This document shows positions 149 to 21,172 of a stretch of 24,908 nucleotides of DNA, one piece after another. The stretch spans positions 1 to 24,908 of IMG/VR virus record IMGVR_UViG_3300008107_000831; one strand, written 5' to 3'. Each line of letters starts with the position of its first letter. The stretch's first letter is position 1. Made by a program: the position numbers and the translations under genes. The DNA is from a virus. The notes below the pieces were generated by a model. It searched no databases and was not told where the DNA came from. It saw only the letters and a list, made by a program, of their open reading frames with translations.

Positions 149-799
149 ATGAAACTTATCAGAGAAGAAATCGAAAAAGTTAAAGTTATCACCGAAAGTG
201 TTGGTGGTAAAAAGCATATGTATATTCAGGGGGTTTTTCTCCAAAGTGAAACTGTAAACCGTAATGGTAGACTTTATCCATTTTCTATAATGGAAAGAGA
301 AGTTAGTCGTTATAATGAAAATTATGTTAAGAAGGGTAGAGCATTAGGTGAGTTAGGTCACCCAGATGGTCCAACCGTAAATCTCGATAGAGTTTCACAC
401 AAAATTACCGAACTCAAGCAAAGTGGTAATAACTTTGTAGGTAAGGCACAAATTCTTTCCACTCCTATGGGAAAGATTGCAGAATCACTCCTTAAAGATG
501 GTGTAACTCTCGGCGTTTCGTCTCGTGGTATTGGATCACTAAGAGAAAACAATAAAGGTTATAAGGAAGTTGGTGAAGATTTCATGTTGGCAACTGCTGC
601 CGATATCGTCGCTGATCCTTCTGCTCCTGATGCGTTTGTTCAGGGAATTATGGAAGGAAAAGAGTGGGTTTGGGATGGAGGTGTTCTCCGCGAAAAACTC
701 GCTGAAAATACTAAAAAAAGAATTAATACTTTAGTAAATCAGAGAAGATTGGAAGAACATAAAATTGAGTTATTCAATGAATTTTTAAATTCATTGTAA
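149..799 (+). CDS. gp21: gp21 prohead core protease
   Basis: This 216-residue protein matches the T4 gp21 (T4 prohead protease) family in length and sequence character. The family is a serine protease that sits inside the prohead and cleaves scaffold, capsid and internal proteins after (I/L)-x-E sites. Visible signatures are the N-terminal SETVNRNGRLYP block, the GELGHPDGP segment with the likely catalytic His near residue 71, and GVSSRGIGSL with the likely nucleophile Ser at about 124-125. The AADIVADPSAPDAFV block further on is also typical. There is no clear Shine-Dalgarno before the ATG, so translation is probably coupled to the upstream gene. In other T4-like phages gp22 follows directly; here a methyltransferase-like gene separates them. 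Confidence 0.93.
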   Translation: MKLIREEIEKVKVITESVGGKKHMYIQGVFLQSETVNRNGRLYPFSIMEREVSRYNENYVKKGRALGELGHPDGPTVNLDRVSHKITELKQSGNNFVGKAQILSTPMGKIAESLLKDGVTLGVSSRGIGSLRENNKGYKEVGEDFMLATAADIVADPSAPDAFVQGIMEGKEWVWDGGVLREKLAENTKKRINTLVNQRRLEEHKIELFNEFLNSL

Positions 800-1592: not shown

Positions 1593-2834
1593 ATGTCTCG
1601 TGGCAATCAATTACAAGAAATGGAAGCAGGCACTAAGCAATCCAGAACCGCTGTTAACGCTGGCGCTAAGGCGGGAGATGCAATGCAAAAATTAGCACCT
1701 GGAGCAGTTGCTGGTCAAACTGGTAGCTGGGAAGATCTTGGTGGTCCTACTCCAGAAAACTATCGCTCTGACGATAGTTCTGCAGAACTAAAAACACCAG
1801 GTAAAACCCTACAACAAGTAAAAAATGTTGTAAATAAGGGTGCAAAATCTGCTGATCCTATGAAGGGTCTGAATAAGAGCCAGGCAGTTAAAGAAGAAGA
1901 AGAATTGGAAGATCAAGATCTTGTTGAAGAAGAAATTGATGAAGAAGAGATTGATTCTGAAGAAGTAGAAATTGAAGAAGAAATCGTATCTGAAGCATCT
2001 AAAGAAGATGATGAAGAAGATGAGGATGAAGAAGATGAGGATGAAGAAGATGAAGAAGATGAAGATGAAAAAATGAAGAAGGAAGAGTATGACATCGAAG
2101 AAGATGTAAATGCTCTTTTAAATTCAAGTGACGAAGAAGAACTCTCCGAAGAGTTTAAGGAAAAGGCAAGAACTATCTTTGAATCAGCACTAAGATCAAA
2201 AGTGTCTGAAATCAAAGAAGAGTTAACTAAACAGTATGAAGTTGCTTACGAGCAAAGACTAATTGAAGAAGTTGAAGAAATCAAAATCTCTCTAGAAGAG
2301 AGAGTTGATTCATATCTAGAGTATGTTGCAGAAGAATGGATGACTGAGAACGAACTCGCAATTGAGCACGGTCTTAAGTCAGATATGACTGAATCATTCC
2401 TCGCAGGAATGAGAGGTCTTTTTGAAGAGCATTATGTATCAATCCCTGAAGATAAATATGATGTGTTAGAGAGTATGGTAGAAAAACTTGATGAGATGGA
2501 GACAAAACTCAACGAGCAAATCGAGAAAAATGTTTCTTTAAACAAGCGTCTCTCCGAGTCGATTGCACAAGGAATTTTTGATGAAATTTCTGAGGGCCTT
2601 GCTGCTACTCAGAAAGATAAGCTCGCTTCACTTGCCGAAAGTGTTGAGTTTGAAAGTGACACAGAATATCGTGAGAAACTGGAGACCCTGAAGGAATCAT
2701 ATTTCCCTTCAAGAACTGTATCTCCTCAAGCACAATCTGAAACTCTTTCTGAAGGAGTAGACGTTGCTACTGAGTATCACTCAGATTCAATGAATGCTTA
2801 CCTGAGAACTCTTTCAGCAGTTGCTAAAAAGTGA
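1593..2834 (+). CDS. gp22: gp22 prohead core scaffold protein
   Basis: This 413-residue, highly acidic and mostly helical protein sits between the protease and the major capsid gene, the position of the T4 gp22 scaffold. Residues about 137-166 are an almost unbroken Glu/Asp tract, followed by long coiled-coil-like helices with many Leu/Ile-x-Glu sites. These are what gp21 would cleave when the scaffold is degraded during maturation. The N-terminal 110 residues are a low-complexity Ala/Gly/Lys segment. CGGAGAG at 1580-1586 is a good ribosome binding site seven bases before the ATG. It is longer than T4 gp22 (about 270 residues), mainly because of the N-terminal and acidic regions. The assignment rests on composition and position more than on motifs. 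Confidence 0.87.
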   Translation: MSRGNQLQEMEAGTKQSRTAVNAGAKAGDAMQKLAPGAVAGQTGSWEDLGGPTPENYRSDDSSAELKTPGKTLQQVKNVVNKGAKSADPMKGLNKSQAVKEEEELEDQDLVEEEIDEEEIDSEEVEIEEEIVSEASKEDDEEDEDEEDEDEEDEEDEDEKMKKEEYDIEEDVNALLNSSDEEELSEEFKEKARTIFESALRSKVSEIKEELTKQYEVAYEQRLIEEVEEIKISLEERVDSYLEYVAEEWMTENELAIEHGLKSDMTESFLAGMRGLFEEHYVSIPEDKYDVLESMVEKLDEMETKLNEQIEKNVSLNKRLSESIAQGIFDEISEGLAATQKDKLASLAESVEFESDTEYREKLETLKESYFPSRTVSPQAQSETLSEGVDVATEYHSDSMNAYLRTLSAVAKK

Positions 2835-2883: not shown

Positions 2884-4296
2884 ATGTTCCAATCCGAGCA
2901 TCTGCAGGAAAAGTGGGCACCACTTCTCGACTATGATGGTCTTGATCCTATCAAAGATTCACACAGAAGAGCAGTAACCGCTGTCCTGCTAGAAAACCAA
3001 GAAAAATTCTTAAGAGAGCAACAGGCTTTCTCAAGTGGTGTCCTGATGGAGACCCCAACCAACGCTGGTAATGCTGCTGGCGCTTCAGGTGGTTTCTCAG
3101 GTTCCGCTGCTGCAGGTGGTCCTGTAGCAGGTTTCGATCCAGTTCTGATTTCACTCATCAGACGTGCAATGCCTAACCTGGTCGCTTATGACCTCGCAGG
3201 TGTTCAACCAATGAGTGGTCCTACTGGACTTATCTTCGCAATGCGTTCCCGTTATAACGATCAGTCGGGAACCGAAGCACTGTTCAACGAAGCAGATACC
3301 GCATTCTCAGGTCAAGATGATGGTCTTAACCTAACTGCTGGTATTTCTAGTGCAGTTGCAGGTATGGGTACTACTACCCAGTATGGTTCAAACCCAGGTC
3401 TTCTTAACCCTGTTGGTACTGGTGCATCCACTGGTGCTGCTGGTTATAACGTTGGTCAGGGTATGGTTACTGGCGATTCCGAGAACCTCGGCAATGGCGA
3501 TGGTAACCAGTTCAACGAGATGGCATTCTCAATCGAGAAAGTTCTTGTTGAAGCAAAGTCAAGAGCACTGAAAGCCGAGTATTCACTAGAACTCGCTCAG
3601 GACCTCAAGGCAATCCACGGTCTAAACGCAGAAGCAGAACTTGCTAACATTCTCTCCACTGAGATCCTCGCAGAAATCAACAGAGAAGTTATCAGAACCA
3701 TCTACAAGGTTGCTGAGCAAGGTGCTGCTGTAAATACTGCTACCGCTGGTGTATTTGACCTTGACGTTGATTCAAACGGTCGTTGGTCCGTTGAGAAGTT
3801 CAAGGGTCTTCTTTTCCAAATCGAGCGTGATGCTAACGCAATCGCACAAAGAACTCGTAGAGGAAAGGGTAATGTTATCATGTGTTCTGCTGACGTTGCA
3901 TCTGCTCTTAGCATGGCTGGTGTTCTCGATTACACCCCTGCTCTGAATGCAAACCTCAACGTTGATGACACTGGTAACACCTTCGCTGGTGTTCTTCTCG
4001 GTAAGTTCCGCGTATATATCGATCCATATTCGGCAAACGTATCTGCTAACCAGTACTACGTTGTTGGATACAAGGGTTCCAGCCCATATGATGCTGGTCT
4101 CTTCTACTGCCCATATGTTCCTCTCCAAATGGTTCGTGCCGTTGGTGAGAACACCTTCCAGCCTAAGATTGGCTTTAAGACCAGATACGGTCTTGTTGCT
4201 AACCCATTTGCTGAAGGAACCACTCAAGGTCTCGGCAGACTTCAAGTTAACGCAAACCGTTACTACAGAAGAGTTCAAATCAAGAACCTCATGTGA
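2884..4296 (+). CDS. gp23: gp23 major capsid protein
   Basis: This 470-residue protein has the T4 gp23 N-terminal pattern: a Lys-Trp-x-Pro-Leu-Leu motif, then DSHRRAVTAVLLENQE. It also has the conserved body including VAYDLAGVQPMSGPTGLIFAMR and the C-terminal RYGLVANPFAEGTTQGLGR block (quoted in part). It forms the hexameric capsid lattice. A likely gp21 maturation site is L-M-E at residues 54-56, which would remove the N-terminal delta domain as in T4. AAAAGG at 2868-2873 is a plausible but distant ribosome binding site. The gene is clearly richer in GC than its neighbours and uses C-ending codons, as expected for the most heavily translated phage gene. A strong terminator follows the stop. 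Confidence 0.98.
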   Translation: MFQSEHLQEKWAPLLDYDGLDPIKDSHRRAVTAVLLENQEKFLREQQAFSSGVLMETPTNAGNAAGASGGFSGSAAAGGPVAGFDPVLISLIRRAMPNLVAYDLAGVQPMSGPTGLIFAMRSRYNDQSGTEALFNEADTAFSGQDDGLNLTAGISSAVAGMGTTTQYGSNPGLLNPVGTGASTGAAGYNVGQGMVTGDSENLGNGDGNQFNEMAFSIEKVLVEAKSRALKAEYSLELAQDLKAIHGLNAEAELANILSTEILAEINREVIRTIYKVAEQGAAVNTATAGVFDLDVDSNGRWSVEKFKGLLFQIERDANAIAQRTRRGKGNVIMCSADVASALSMAGVLDYTPALNANLNVDDTGNTFAGVLLGKFRVYIDPYSANVSANQYYVVGYKGSSPYDAGLFYCPYVPLQMVRAVGENTFQPKIGFKTRYGLVANPFAEGTTQGLGRLQVNANRYYRRVQIKNLM

Positions 4297-14442: not shown

Positions 14443-15487
14443 ATGCCCCGCAAAATTTCTGTGACTGACGATCAACTTATTTCTGAACTTAAAACTTTGT
14501 ACGGTACTGAAATTAGTTCTGGTGACGTTAAAGGTTTTTGTGCTTCCAAAGATCTTAGTTACCCTACTGTAACTCGTCGCCTTGAACCTTATAAAACAAA
14601 TCGTGGTCGTTGGAACTTGGAAATTACTCAAGAACATGTTGATGAAATTGAGCGTACTTTCCAGGCACCTGCCGCTATTCCTCCAGTGCAACAAAATCTA
14701 ATTCCTGATAAAGATGATACCTTCGTCAAGTTTGGTAACTTTAACGATATTAAAAAAATTATTCAGTCCCGTCTCTTTTATCCTACGTTCATTACGGGTC
14801 TTTCGGGTAATGGTAAAACGTTCCCGCCTTATTGATGGGAATACTGCTTGGCACAACGGTCCCGTCATTGAGGCACTGGAGCGAGGAGCAATCCTGCTTC
14901 TTGACGAAATCGACCTCGCTAGCAACAAGATTTTGTGCCTCCAATCCATCCTTGAAGGTAAGGGTGTCTTCTTGAAAAAGATTGGTCGATGGATTTCTCC
15001 TGCCCCTGGATTTAACATTGTTGCTACCGCAAACACCAAGGGTAAGGGTTCTGATGACGGTCGCTTCATCGGCACCAACGTGCTTAACGAGGCATTCCTA
15101 GAGCGTTTCCCTGTGACCTTTGAGCAGTCTTATCCTGCCCCAGCAACCGAGCAGAAGATCCTTGAAGGCGTTGCTCTGGATCTTGGTGTAGAAGAGCGTG
15201 ATTTCTGCAAGCGCCTTGTTGATTGGGCAGATGTAATCCGCAAGACTTTCTATGATGGTGGCATTGAAGAAATCATCAGCACTCGTCGTCTTGTTCACAT
15301 CATCCGTGCCTACAGCATCTTCAATGACAAGGCAAAGGCAATTCAAGTTTGTGTAAATCGTTTTGATGATGAGACTAAACAATCTTTCCTTGAACTTTAT
15401 GATAAGATTGATAATGAGTTTGAAATGCCAAAAGACTTGACATCGGAACAAAACTCTAACGAGATTGCATCAGATACTCCTTTCTGA
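14443..15487 (+). pseudogene. cobS: CobS/MoxR-like AAA+ ATPase, broken just after Walker A
   Basis: Two frames together make one AAA+ ATPase of the type annotated cobS in cyanomyoviruses. Frame A (14443-14835) gives the N-terminal 126 residues and ends in Walker A, ITGLSGNGKTF, then meets TGA at 14833. Frame B carries RLIDGNTAWHNGPVIEAL from 14825, Walker B ILLLDEIDLAS, FNVVATANT-like FNIVATANTKGKG (sensor 1), GTNVLNEAFLERFPVTF and ISTRRLVHI, and stops at 15487. Between GKTF and RLIDG about 30-40 residues normally linking Walker A to the next block appear to be missing, together with a one-base shift. So this is a deletion plus frameshift, not a simple slip. The 3' part is richer in GC than the 5' part. 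It may be a true null allele, a recombination junction or an assembly error. Confidence 0.8.
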
Positions 15488-20457: not shown

Positions 20458-20892
20458 ATGACTAACCTAACAAGGTATACTACTGCGGATCTTCCTGCAC
20501 TAATGGATAGAATTACTCGCAATAGTATTGGATTAGATGAATATTTTGATCGTATTTTTAGTATTCATGAGACTACTTCCAATTATCCTCCATATAATCT
20601 AGTTCAGATTAGTAATGTCGAATCTCGTTTGGAACTCGCACTTGCAGGATTTAAAAAGAATGAAGTTTATGTTTACACACAAGATGGTAAACTCTTTATC
20701 GAAGGTCAGAAAGAAGATAAGGAAACTGAAACTAAGTATGTCCACAAAGGTTTGGCTCAACGGTCATTTACACGTTCATGGACACTCTCTGATGATACGG
20801 AAGTTAGATCAGTTGATTTTGAGGATGGGCTTTTGACTATTACTCTAGGAAAAATTGTACCAGAACACCATAAACGTAAAGATTATCTCTAA
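20458..20892 (+). CDS. hsp20: Hsp20-family small heat-shock protein
   Basis: This 144-residue protein has an alpha-crystallin domain. RYTTADLPALMDRITRNSIGLDEYFDRIF forms the N-terminal arm (in pieces). NYPPYNLVQ begins the domain, LELALAGFKKNEVYVYTQDGKLFIEGQK is the core strand pattern (in pieces), and FTRSWTL, then FEDGLLTITL, follow before a short C-terminal tail. It would hold unfolding proteins during infection and is a well-known cyanomyovirus gene at this position. AAAGGAGA at 20443-20450 is the best ribosome binding site in this region and fixes the ATG at 20458; upstream in-frame codons start at a TTG inside the leader hairpin and are not credible. Confidence 0.95.
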   Translation: MTNLTRYTTADLPALMDRITRNSIGLDEYFDRIFSIHETTSNYPPYNLVQISNVESRLELALAGFKKNEVYVYTQDGKLFIEGQKEDKETETKYVHKGLAQRSFTRSWTLSDDTEVRSVDFEDGLLTITLGKIVPEHHKRKDYL

Positions 20893-20910: not shown

Positions 20911-21090
20911 ATGAAAACCTTCCACCAATTTATAAGTGAACTTAAAACAATTCCATATTATAATGCTAAAGCACATAAAATTTATAATAAAGGAAGGGTG
21001 ACTAATATTGGATCTGGAAGAGCGGTGCCTAAAAGATCATCATCCAGTGCTTCTGGTGATGGTGGTGATGGTGGTGACGGGGGAGAATAA
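20911..21090 (+). CDS. small candidate internal head protein with capsid-targeting leader
   Basis: This is a 59-residue protein missed by length cut-offs. Its first ten residues, MKTFHQFISE, strongly resemble the capsid-targeting sequence at the start of T4 internal proteins (MKTYQEFIAE), and the I-S-E end fits the gp21 cleavage rule (I/L)-x-E. After the cut a basic segment (LKTIPYYNAKAHKIYNKGR) and an acidic Gly/Asp repeat tail (SGDGGDGGDGGE, coded by near-repeats at 21055-21087) would remain. In T4 such proteins are packed in the head and injected with DNA. It starts 19 bases after the hsp20 stop with no strong ribosome binding site and is followed by a terminator. Function after injection is unknown. 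Confidence 0.6.
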   Translation: MKTFHQFISELKTIPYYNAKAHKIYNKGRVTNIGSGRAVPKRSSSSASGDGGDGGDGGE

Positions 21091-21132: not shown

Positions 21133-21172
21133 AGGGGAGTTCTGGCAAAAACCAGAATTGACTCCCCTTTTT
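21133..21172 (+). terminator. intrinsic terminator before the gp43 unit
   Basis: AGGGGAGT (21133-21140) pairs with ACTCCCCT (21161-21168), and TCTGG with CCAGA around a CAAAAA loop. The 3' arm carries a 4-base bulge ATTG (21157-21160), and five T follow (21168-21172). The bulge bases are part of the -35 box of the next promoter. Confidence 0.9.

Follow-up and report, generated by a model that had tools for sequence, protein, structure and literature searches.

A leader-tagged small protein gene at an hsp20-linked exchange site of a T4-like cyanophage, and its probable packaging in the virus head

What is encoded by the short open reading frame (ORF) that directly follows the small heat-shock protein gene hsp20 in this virus, and could its product travel in the virus head? 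The window, that is, the whole 24.9 kb virus record analysed here, has the gene order of a T4-like cyanophage, and its DNA is nearest to that of Synechococcus myoviruses. A sequence-only reading had described a 59-residue ORF beginning MKTFHQFISE, which was absent from the prior gene listing. The ORF is present as described, 18 nt past the hsp20 stop codon, and it is a real gene, whose frame, start and leader are kept in IMG/VR homologues. A spurious ORF was also considered and was ruled out by conservation, by a dN/dS far below 1 and by the fixed position behind hsp20. Our main reading, to which we give a probability of about 0.74, is that the product is an internal protein, made late and packaged in the head of this T4-like cyanophage; the probability covers the full explanation, with docking, cutting, delivery and the exchange site. 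Packaging of the protein is likely, and we infer that it is cut by the gp21 protease and injected together with the DNA. The features on which the argument draws are collected in Table 1.

Table 1. Positions in the window of the gene, its parts, its neighbours and the head genes discussed in the text.
Feature	Position	Strand	Basis and remarks
gp21 prohead protease, presumed processing enzyme	149..799	+	Pfam PF03420 Peptidase_S77 E 1e-39; PHROG head maturation protease E 1e-82
gp22 scaffold (T4 internal proteins bind such a core via the leader)	1593..2834	+	PHROG head scaffolding protein E 9e-108
gp23 major capsid protein, candidate gp21 site LME/T at residues 54-56	2884..4296	+	equivalent sites in cyanophages
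hsp20 (small heat-shock protein), constant left neighbour	20458..20892	+	PHROG Hsp20 E 4e-58; Pfam HSP20
Late-promoter-like element TCTAAATA, overlapping the hsp20 stop codon	20888..20895	+	one mismatch to TATAAATA
Leader-bearing small basic protein	20911..21090	+	ATG start, 59 aa, MKTFHQFISELKTIPYYNAKAHKIYNKGRVTNIGSGRAVPKRSSSSASGDGGDGGDGGE; homologues share start and leader
Capsid-targeting-like leader MKTFHQFISE, predicted gp21 cut after E10	20911..20940	+	T4 IPII/IPIII match; cleavage inferred
Predicted mature peptide, 49 aa, 5.0 kDa, pI 9.8	20941..21087	+	computed; residues 11-45 basic, zero acidic
Gly/Asp tail after PKRSSSS, part of the shared C-terminal signature	21049..21087	+	alignment
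Hairpin then T-run, probable terminator closing the hsp20-ORF unit	21133..21168	+	dG -19.7 kcal/mol, z -4.25

The leaders read from the T4 genome are MKTYQEFIAE in both IPII and IPIII, and MKTFKEF in IPI, where ITE/A comes later. Calculated with the residue frequencies of the window, the pattern MK[TS][FY]xx[FY][ILV]xE at a start codon has a P of about 2e-6, and 0.0016 occurrences are expected in the window, which has 938 ATGs when both strands are counted. A degenerate leader pattern gave 18 matches in 8 phage records versus 0 for the reversed control, and the positive control, MKx[FY]xx[FY] applied to T4, recovered ipI, ipII and ipIII as well as one more small gene, 61.1. Mutagenesis of T4 IPIII has assigned residues 4 and 7 to targeting and residues 8 and 10 to processing, a protein with D10 being targeted but unprocessed (PMC9026906). 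At the targeting positions the cyanophage protein has the aromatics F4 and F7, and it carries I8-S9-E10. The additional T4 product, gp61.1 (locus L517; NC_000866 18966-19130, - strand; 54 aa, hypothetical), is possibly a fourth leader-tagged small protein in T4. It resembles the cyanophage protein in its leader (MKTFKEFIKE), very small size and Lys-rich C-terminal region, and is unlike it past the leader and in its neighbours.

The machinery that would receive such a leader is encoded in the same genome, which has both gp21 and gp22. The protease, which the sequence-only reading had already placed near the left end of the window, is confirmed by Pfam and PHROG alike, and its motifs ELGH, SSRG and DIVADPS are all present. 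In gp23 of the window and of three other cyanophages, L-x-E stands at the expected propeptide end (LAE/A in S-SCSM1, LTE/A in both S-SZBM1 and S-CREM2), which is consistent with an unchanged gp21 specificity. Elsewhere in the window, a CobS/MoxR-like ATPase gene (14443-14835 and 14714-15487) is apparently split by a frameshift shortly past Walker A (GLSGNGKT), perhaps through a sequencing error.

Relatives of the gene were found at the same place in many other viruses. A first IMG/VR scan returned 11 loci that share start, leader and core with the query, and an independent IMG/VR scan by hsp20 returned 80 loci, 36 of them with a leader-bearing small ORF 12-45 nt past the hsp20 stop (five other regular-expression matches were short chance ORFs and were left out of the 36). 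Further scans enlarged the set to over 220 viral loci, which yield 111 distinct peptides and have a homologue or analogue in this hsp20-adjacent position; for 221 of 225 loci the start lies 12-23 nt past the hsp20 stop. Several types can be told apart: the query-like type A has HKVYDKNRVTNIGAGRAVPKRSSSS and then a Gly tail; type B has MKSFDEFKTIAYKNAVPHTVYS..IPKGKAVPVRSRSSAGG; type C/D has YKMAKPHLGLPKGKAYAKRSSSSAGG; type E begins MKTFQEF and continues with EMKGDFG and YAMLPGKKVCKFKRKR; and type G is a further type at this site, represented by two distinct peptides in the cut-site count below. By alignment, a C-terminal signature, KGKA/GRAVP-x-[KR]SxSSxGG with a Gly/Asp tail, is common to types A, B, C and G.

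Database matches to the family are few. The query has no family match in Pfam or PHROG, and a relative searched against PHROG gave two very weak matches that cover the leader only. In tblastn against 50,697 phage records, neither the query nor a type B relative found a match; probes of types C and E matched Synechococcus phage DSL-LC02 and S-SRM01, respectively, and these two are the isolates with a family member. The S-SRM01 member (L014, 5097-5276) has its annotated start 7 codons late, so that the leader is lost; searches that rely on annotation would miss leader proteins whose starts are wrong in this way.

Within the family, the leader is far more uniform than the site at which it would be removed. 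K2 is present in 111 of 111 distinct peptides, and positions 4 and 7 are both F or Y in every one of them. For extraction K2 was obligatory, while I or L would also have been accepted at position 4 and L at position 7; none of these alternatives occurred. A scan without the leader filter yielded one true exception, locus L469, which is one residue shorter. In type A the dN/dS is 0.07 for the leader versus 0.19 for the core, and in type B it is 0.03 versus 0.26, with high synonymous change in the type B leader, which indicates that the constraint there acts on the protein. Type E shows no such contrast between leader and core, the leader thus being the most constrained part in two of the three subfamilies tested. 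The proposal that this is a T4-type capsid-targeting sequence is supported by every available sequence test, including the aromatic residues at positions 4 and 7 in all relatives.

The cut site behaves differently from one subfamily to the next. [IL]xE occupies residues 8-10 in 10 of 11 type A and 16 of 17 type C peptides, has moved to residues 11-13 in type E (30 of 38), and occurs nowhere in residues 5-25 of type B, the largest subfamily (0/43), or of type G (0/2). A point against the main reading is that the residue after the predicted cut would be L, I or V in type A, where the T4 internal proteins have A. The sequence-only reading had predicted an I-x-E site for gp21 and had named missing conservation of leader and site in close relatives as a ground for rejection; the leader is kept in all 111 peptides, and the site holds in the query's own subfamily and in type C, but not in types B and G, and is shifted in type E. 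Trimming is therefore not a requirement of the family as a whole, and since type B keeps the leader without a cut site, it is head targeting, not trimming, that appears to be selected. Read from these alignments, the family shows that the split between targeting and trimming known from T4 mutants also occurs naturally.

The type of gene that follows hsp20 is not inherited stably with it. In a phylogeny of 162 hsp20 sequences, the following-gene type changes at least 45 times when types only are considered and 71 times with all groups, where the least possible number is 5, although these counts are approximate because hsp20 is a short gene that could have undergone recombination of its own. Strongly supported branches of the tree alone force 10-15 changes for each of B, C, E and absence, and 3 for A. 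With so many switches the locus behaves as a cassette-exchange site, and exchange at the hsp20-adjacent locus is clear. The internal proteins of T-even phages are diverse and have only the leader in common (PMC3012670, PMC12373910).

The sequence at the hsp20 stop codon bears on a possible expression late in infection. The cyanophage late motif is NATAAATA (PMC2984593), to which the element found there is close. [CA]TAAATA lies over the hsp20 stop in 214 of 217 family loci, compared with 44 of 82 loci without the gene. For leader genes in general, TAAATA is found within 60 nt upstream in 49%, compared with 25% of control ORFs (P 3e-8); in the window alone, late-motif matches were not above chance.

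Published virion proteomes of cyanophages allow the leader to be related to actual presence in particles. The virion list of S-CREM2 (PMC10665884) comprises 52 of 221 genes and includes five of five leader genes, namely those for a SAM hydrolase, ORF13, an APH/ChoK-like kinase, ORF136 and a cytidylyltransferase. In S-SZBM1 (PMC9146016) one of three leader genes was detected, a cytidylyltransferase (MRFRQFIIE), and in S-SCSM1 (PMC9602691) one of two, an NMNAT (MKSFLQFLKE) annotated as a virion protein. Pooled, 7 of 10 leader genes were detected versus 1.9 expected (P 6e-4), in three phages that are without the hsp20-linked family and with a pattern (M[KRQ]x[FYL]xx[FYM]hxE) that had been broadened with some of the S-CREM2 proteins already in view. 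A narrower pattern gave 3/3 for S-CREM2 (counting the GTG-start kinase), 0/2 for S-SZBM1, where the cytidylyltransferase is missed, and 1/2 for S-SCSM1. Passages of the three proteome papers themselves allow for contaminants, and no link to a targeting leader is drawn in those portions of the papers that were consulted. In the literature searched, 'capsid targeting' and 'cyanophage' occur together in a review only.

The virion proteins that bear a similar leader are thus the SAM hydrolase, the APH/ChoK-like kinase, the NMNAT/cytidylyltransferase proteins and small unknowns (L241, L240 and L245 in S-CREM2, L267 in S-SCSM1, L270 in S-SZBM1). The enzymes from S-CREM2, S-SCSM1 and S-SZBM1 have the same kind of leader as the query (MKDFDSFLEE, VKRFDAFLTE, MKNFSSFLTE and the two given above) and were detected in purified virions; unlike the query, they have known folds. 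The main exception to the leader rule is the GDFNG family of about 105 aa, MKSFxxFLSESVNIxGDFNG... (L268 1216-1536, L266 4312-4629, L138-L140, L151), which was undetected in the virions of S-SCSM1 and S-SZBM1, and the neighbour _192 was undetected in one phage. Among the matches listed from an IMG/VR scan for MKTFxxFIxE (L016-L135), the leader stands on many unrelated proteins, including nucleotidyltransferase-like proteins, kinase-like proteins and small unknowns, and locus L071, also among the matches listed, has four leader genes within 14 kb.

Taken as a mechanism, the main reading would proceed as follows. The protein would be synthesised late, and by analogy with T4 its leader, MKTFHQFISE, would bind it to the scaffold protein gp22 in the interior of the growing prohead. 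There gp21 would cut after I-S-E10, at a site that is kept in the query's subfamily. The resulting 49-residue, strongly basic peptide with its Gly/Asp tail would remain among the packaged DNA and would enter the next host together with it. At the exchange site between hsp20 and the gp43 region, alternative leader-tagged peptides would replace one another. The head-address tag and the hundreds of relatives that act as interchangeable cassettes suggest that such viruses probably carry leader proteins to their next host.

For the role of the mature peptide there are two leading options, a DNA-associated protein and a DNA-delivered inhibitor of host defence. An AlphaFold2 model predicts strands at residues 22-26 and 29-33 with moderate confidence (pLDDT about 80) and a disordered tail, and a PDB fold search with this medium-confidence model gave no match at E <= 0.001. 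One possibility is that the peptide mainly neutralises or organises the packaged DNA, as a histone-like filler with no specific host target. This would be compatible with packaging and competes with other ideas for function only; as such it is rather unlikely. The pI of 9.8 and the complete lack of acidic residues in 11-45 fit it well, a Lys/Arg-rich stretch is common to all types, and lysines of T4 internal proteins touch packaged DNA phosphates (PMC3012670). However, each type has its own conserved sequence (RVTNIGAGRAVP, PHTVYS, KGDFG...C), which together with the predicted beta-hairpin suggests more than charge. More generally, a role in assembly or in association with DNA is favoured by how strongly charged the peptide is and by purifying selection within the individual types.

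The second option, that the peptide is injected to inhibit a host defence, in the way that T4 Ip1, Ip2 and Ip3 act against different GmrSD type IV restriction enzymes, is unlikely as well. It is favoured by the cassette exchange and by the fact that all three T4 proteins inhibit type IV restriction enzymes (PMC12373910), with the same leader, small size and alternative cassettes at a single locus as further parallels. Against this, the core within each type is under purifying, not diversifying, selection, and similarity to known inhibitor families is absent in Pfam and PHROG. Likeness to IPI* in particular found no match in Pfam, PHROG or PDB, and T4 Ip1-3 themselves share no sequence. The remark of the sequence-only reading that the remainder is unlike T4 internal proteins is true, yet it applies equally among T4's own three.

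A different alternative would make the protein an assembly factor, either a small core or scaffold component such as T4 gp67/gp68 or a partner of Hsp20 in building the prohead; it would bear the scaffold-binding motif but would be no payload itself and would not be delivered. The constant linkage to hsp20, which has been suggested to aid capsid scaffolding (PMC3037559), the purifying selection on the core and the retention of the leader without a cleavage site in type B would all suit such a role, but the gene is dispensable, being carried by only 36 of 80 unselected hsp20 loci, and its type is swapped repeatedly, unlike core assembly genes, so that this alternative is improbable. That MKxFxxF is accidental or serves translation initiation, the peptide being an intracellular regulator, is very improbable, since two leader families undetected in virions are outweighed by the 18 matches versus 0 reversed, by a constraint on protein and not on DNA, and by the 7 of 10 leader genes found in virions.

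The preferred reading, a late internal protein packaged in the head, can be set beside known systems. With T4 IPI, IPII and IPIII the cyanophage protein shares the MKT[FY]xxF leader with I-x-E, its small size and basic character, and a genome that encodes gp21 and gp22; it differs from them past the leader, in having 59 aa with a Gly/Asp tail and in lying behind hsp20, and the cyanophage family further differs in its large subfamily without a cleavage site. T4 internal proteins share the leader only (PMC12373910), whereas the cyanophage types also share the C-terminal signature. As at the exchange loci for T-even internal proteins, alternative cassettes occupy one locus (PMC12373910, PMC9026906, PMC3012670). 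The ADP-ribosyltransferase Alt of T4, which is packaged and injected, is similarly directed to the head and cut by gp21 at I-x-E (ITE-6, PMC5694885), but is a large enzyme with a six-residue leader.

What appears to be new here is an internal-protein system of T4 type in cyanophages, whose exchange site is constantly linked to hsp20 and one of whose subfamilies has lost the trimming site. In that subfamily targeting and trimming would be seen apart in a natural setting, a separation known until now from laboratory mutants of T4 only. More tentatively, and with odds somewhat short of even, cyanophages may have in the hsp20-adjacent site their own equivalent of the internal-protein hot spot of T-even phages, devoted to the exchange of leader-tagged peptides that are delivered into cyanobacteria. 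Taken together with the leader-tagged enzymes of published virions, T4-type head targeting may then be a general, largely unrecognised route by which cyanophages inject proteins as infection begins. If true, the proteins carried into hosts by T4-like cyanophages could be recognised by the ten codons with which their genes begin. That would account for the repeated finding of NMNAT-like proteins, SAM hydrolase and kinases in the virions of cyanophages, and would mark out hundreds of proteins in abundant aquatic viruses as unstudied candidates for injection.
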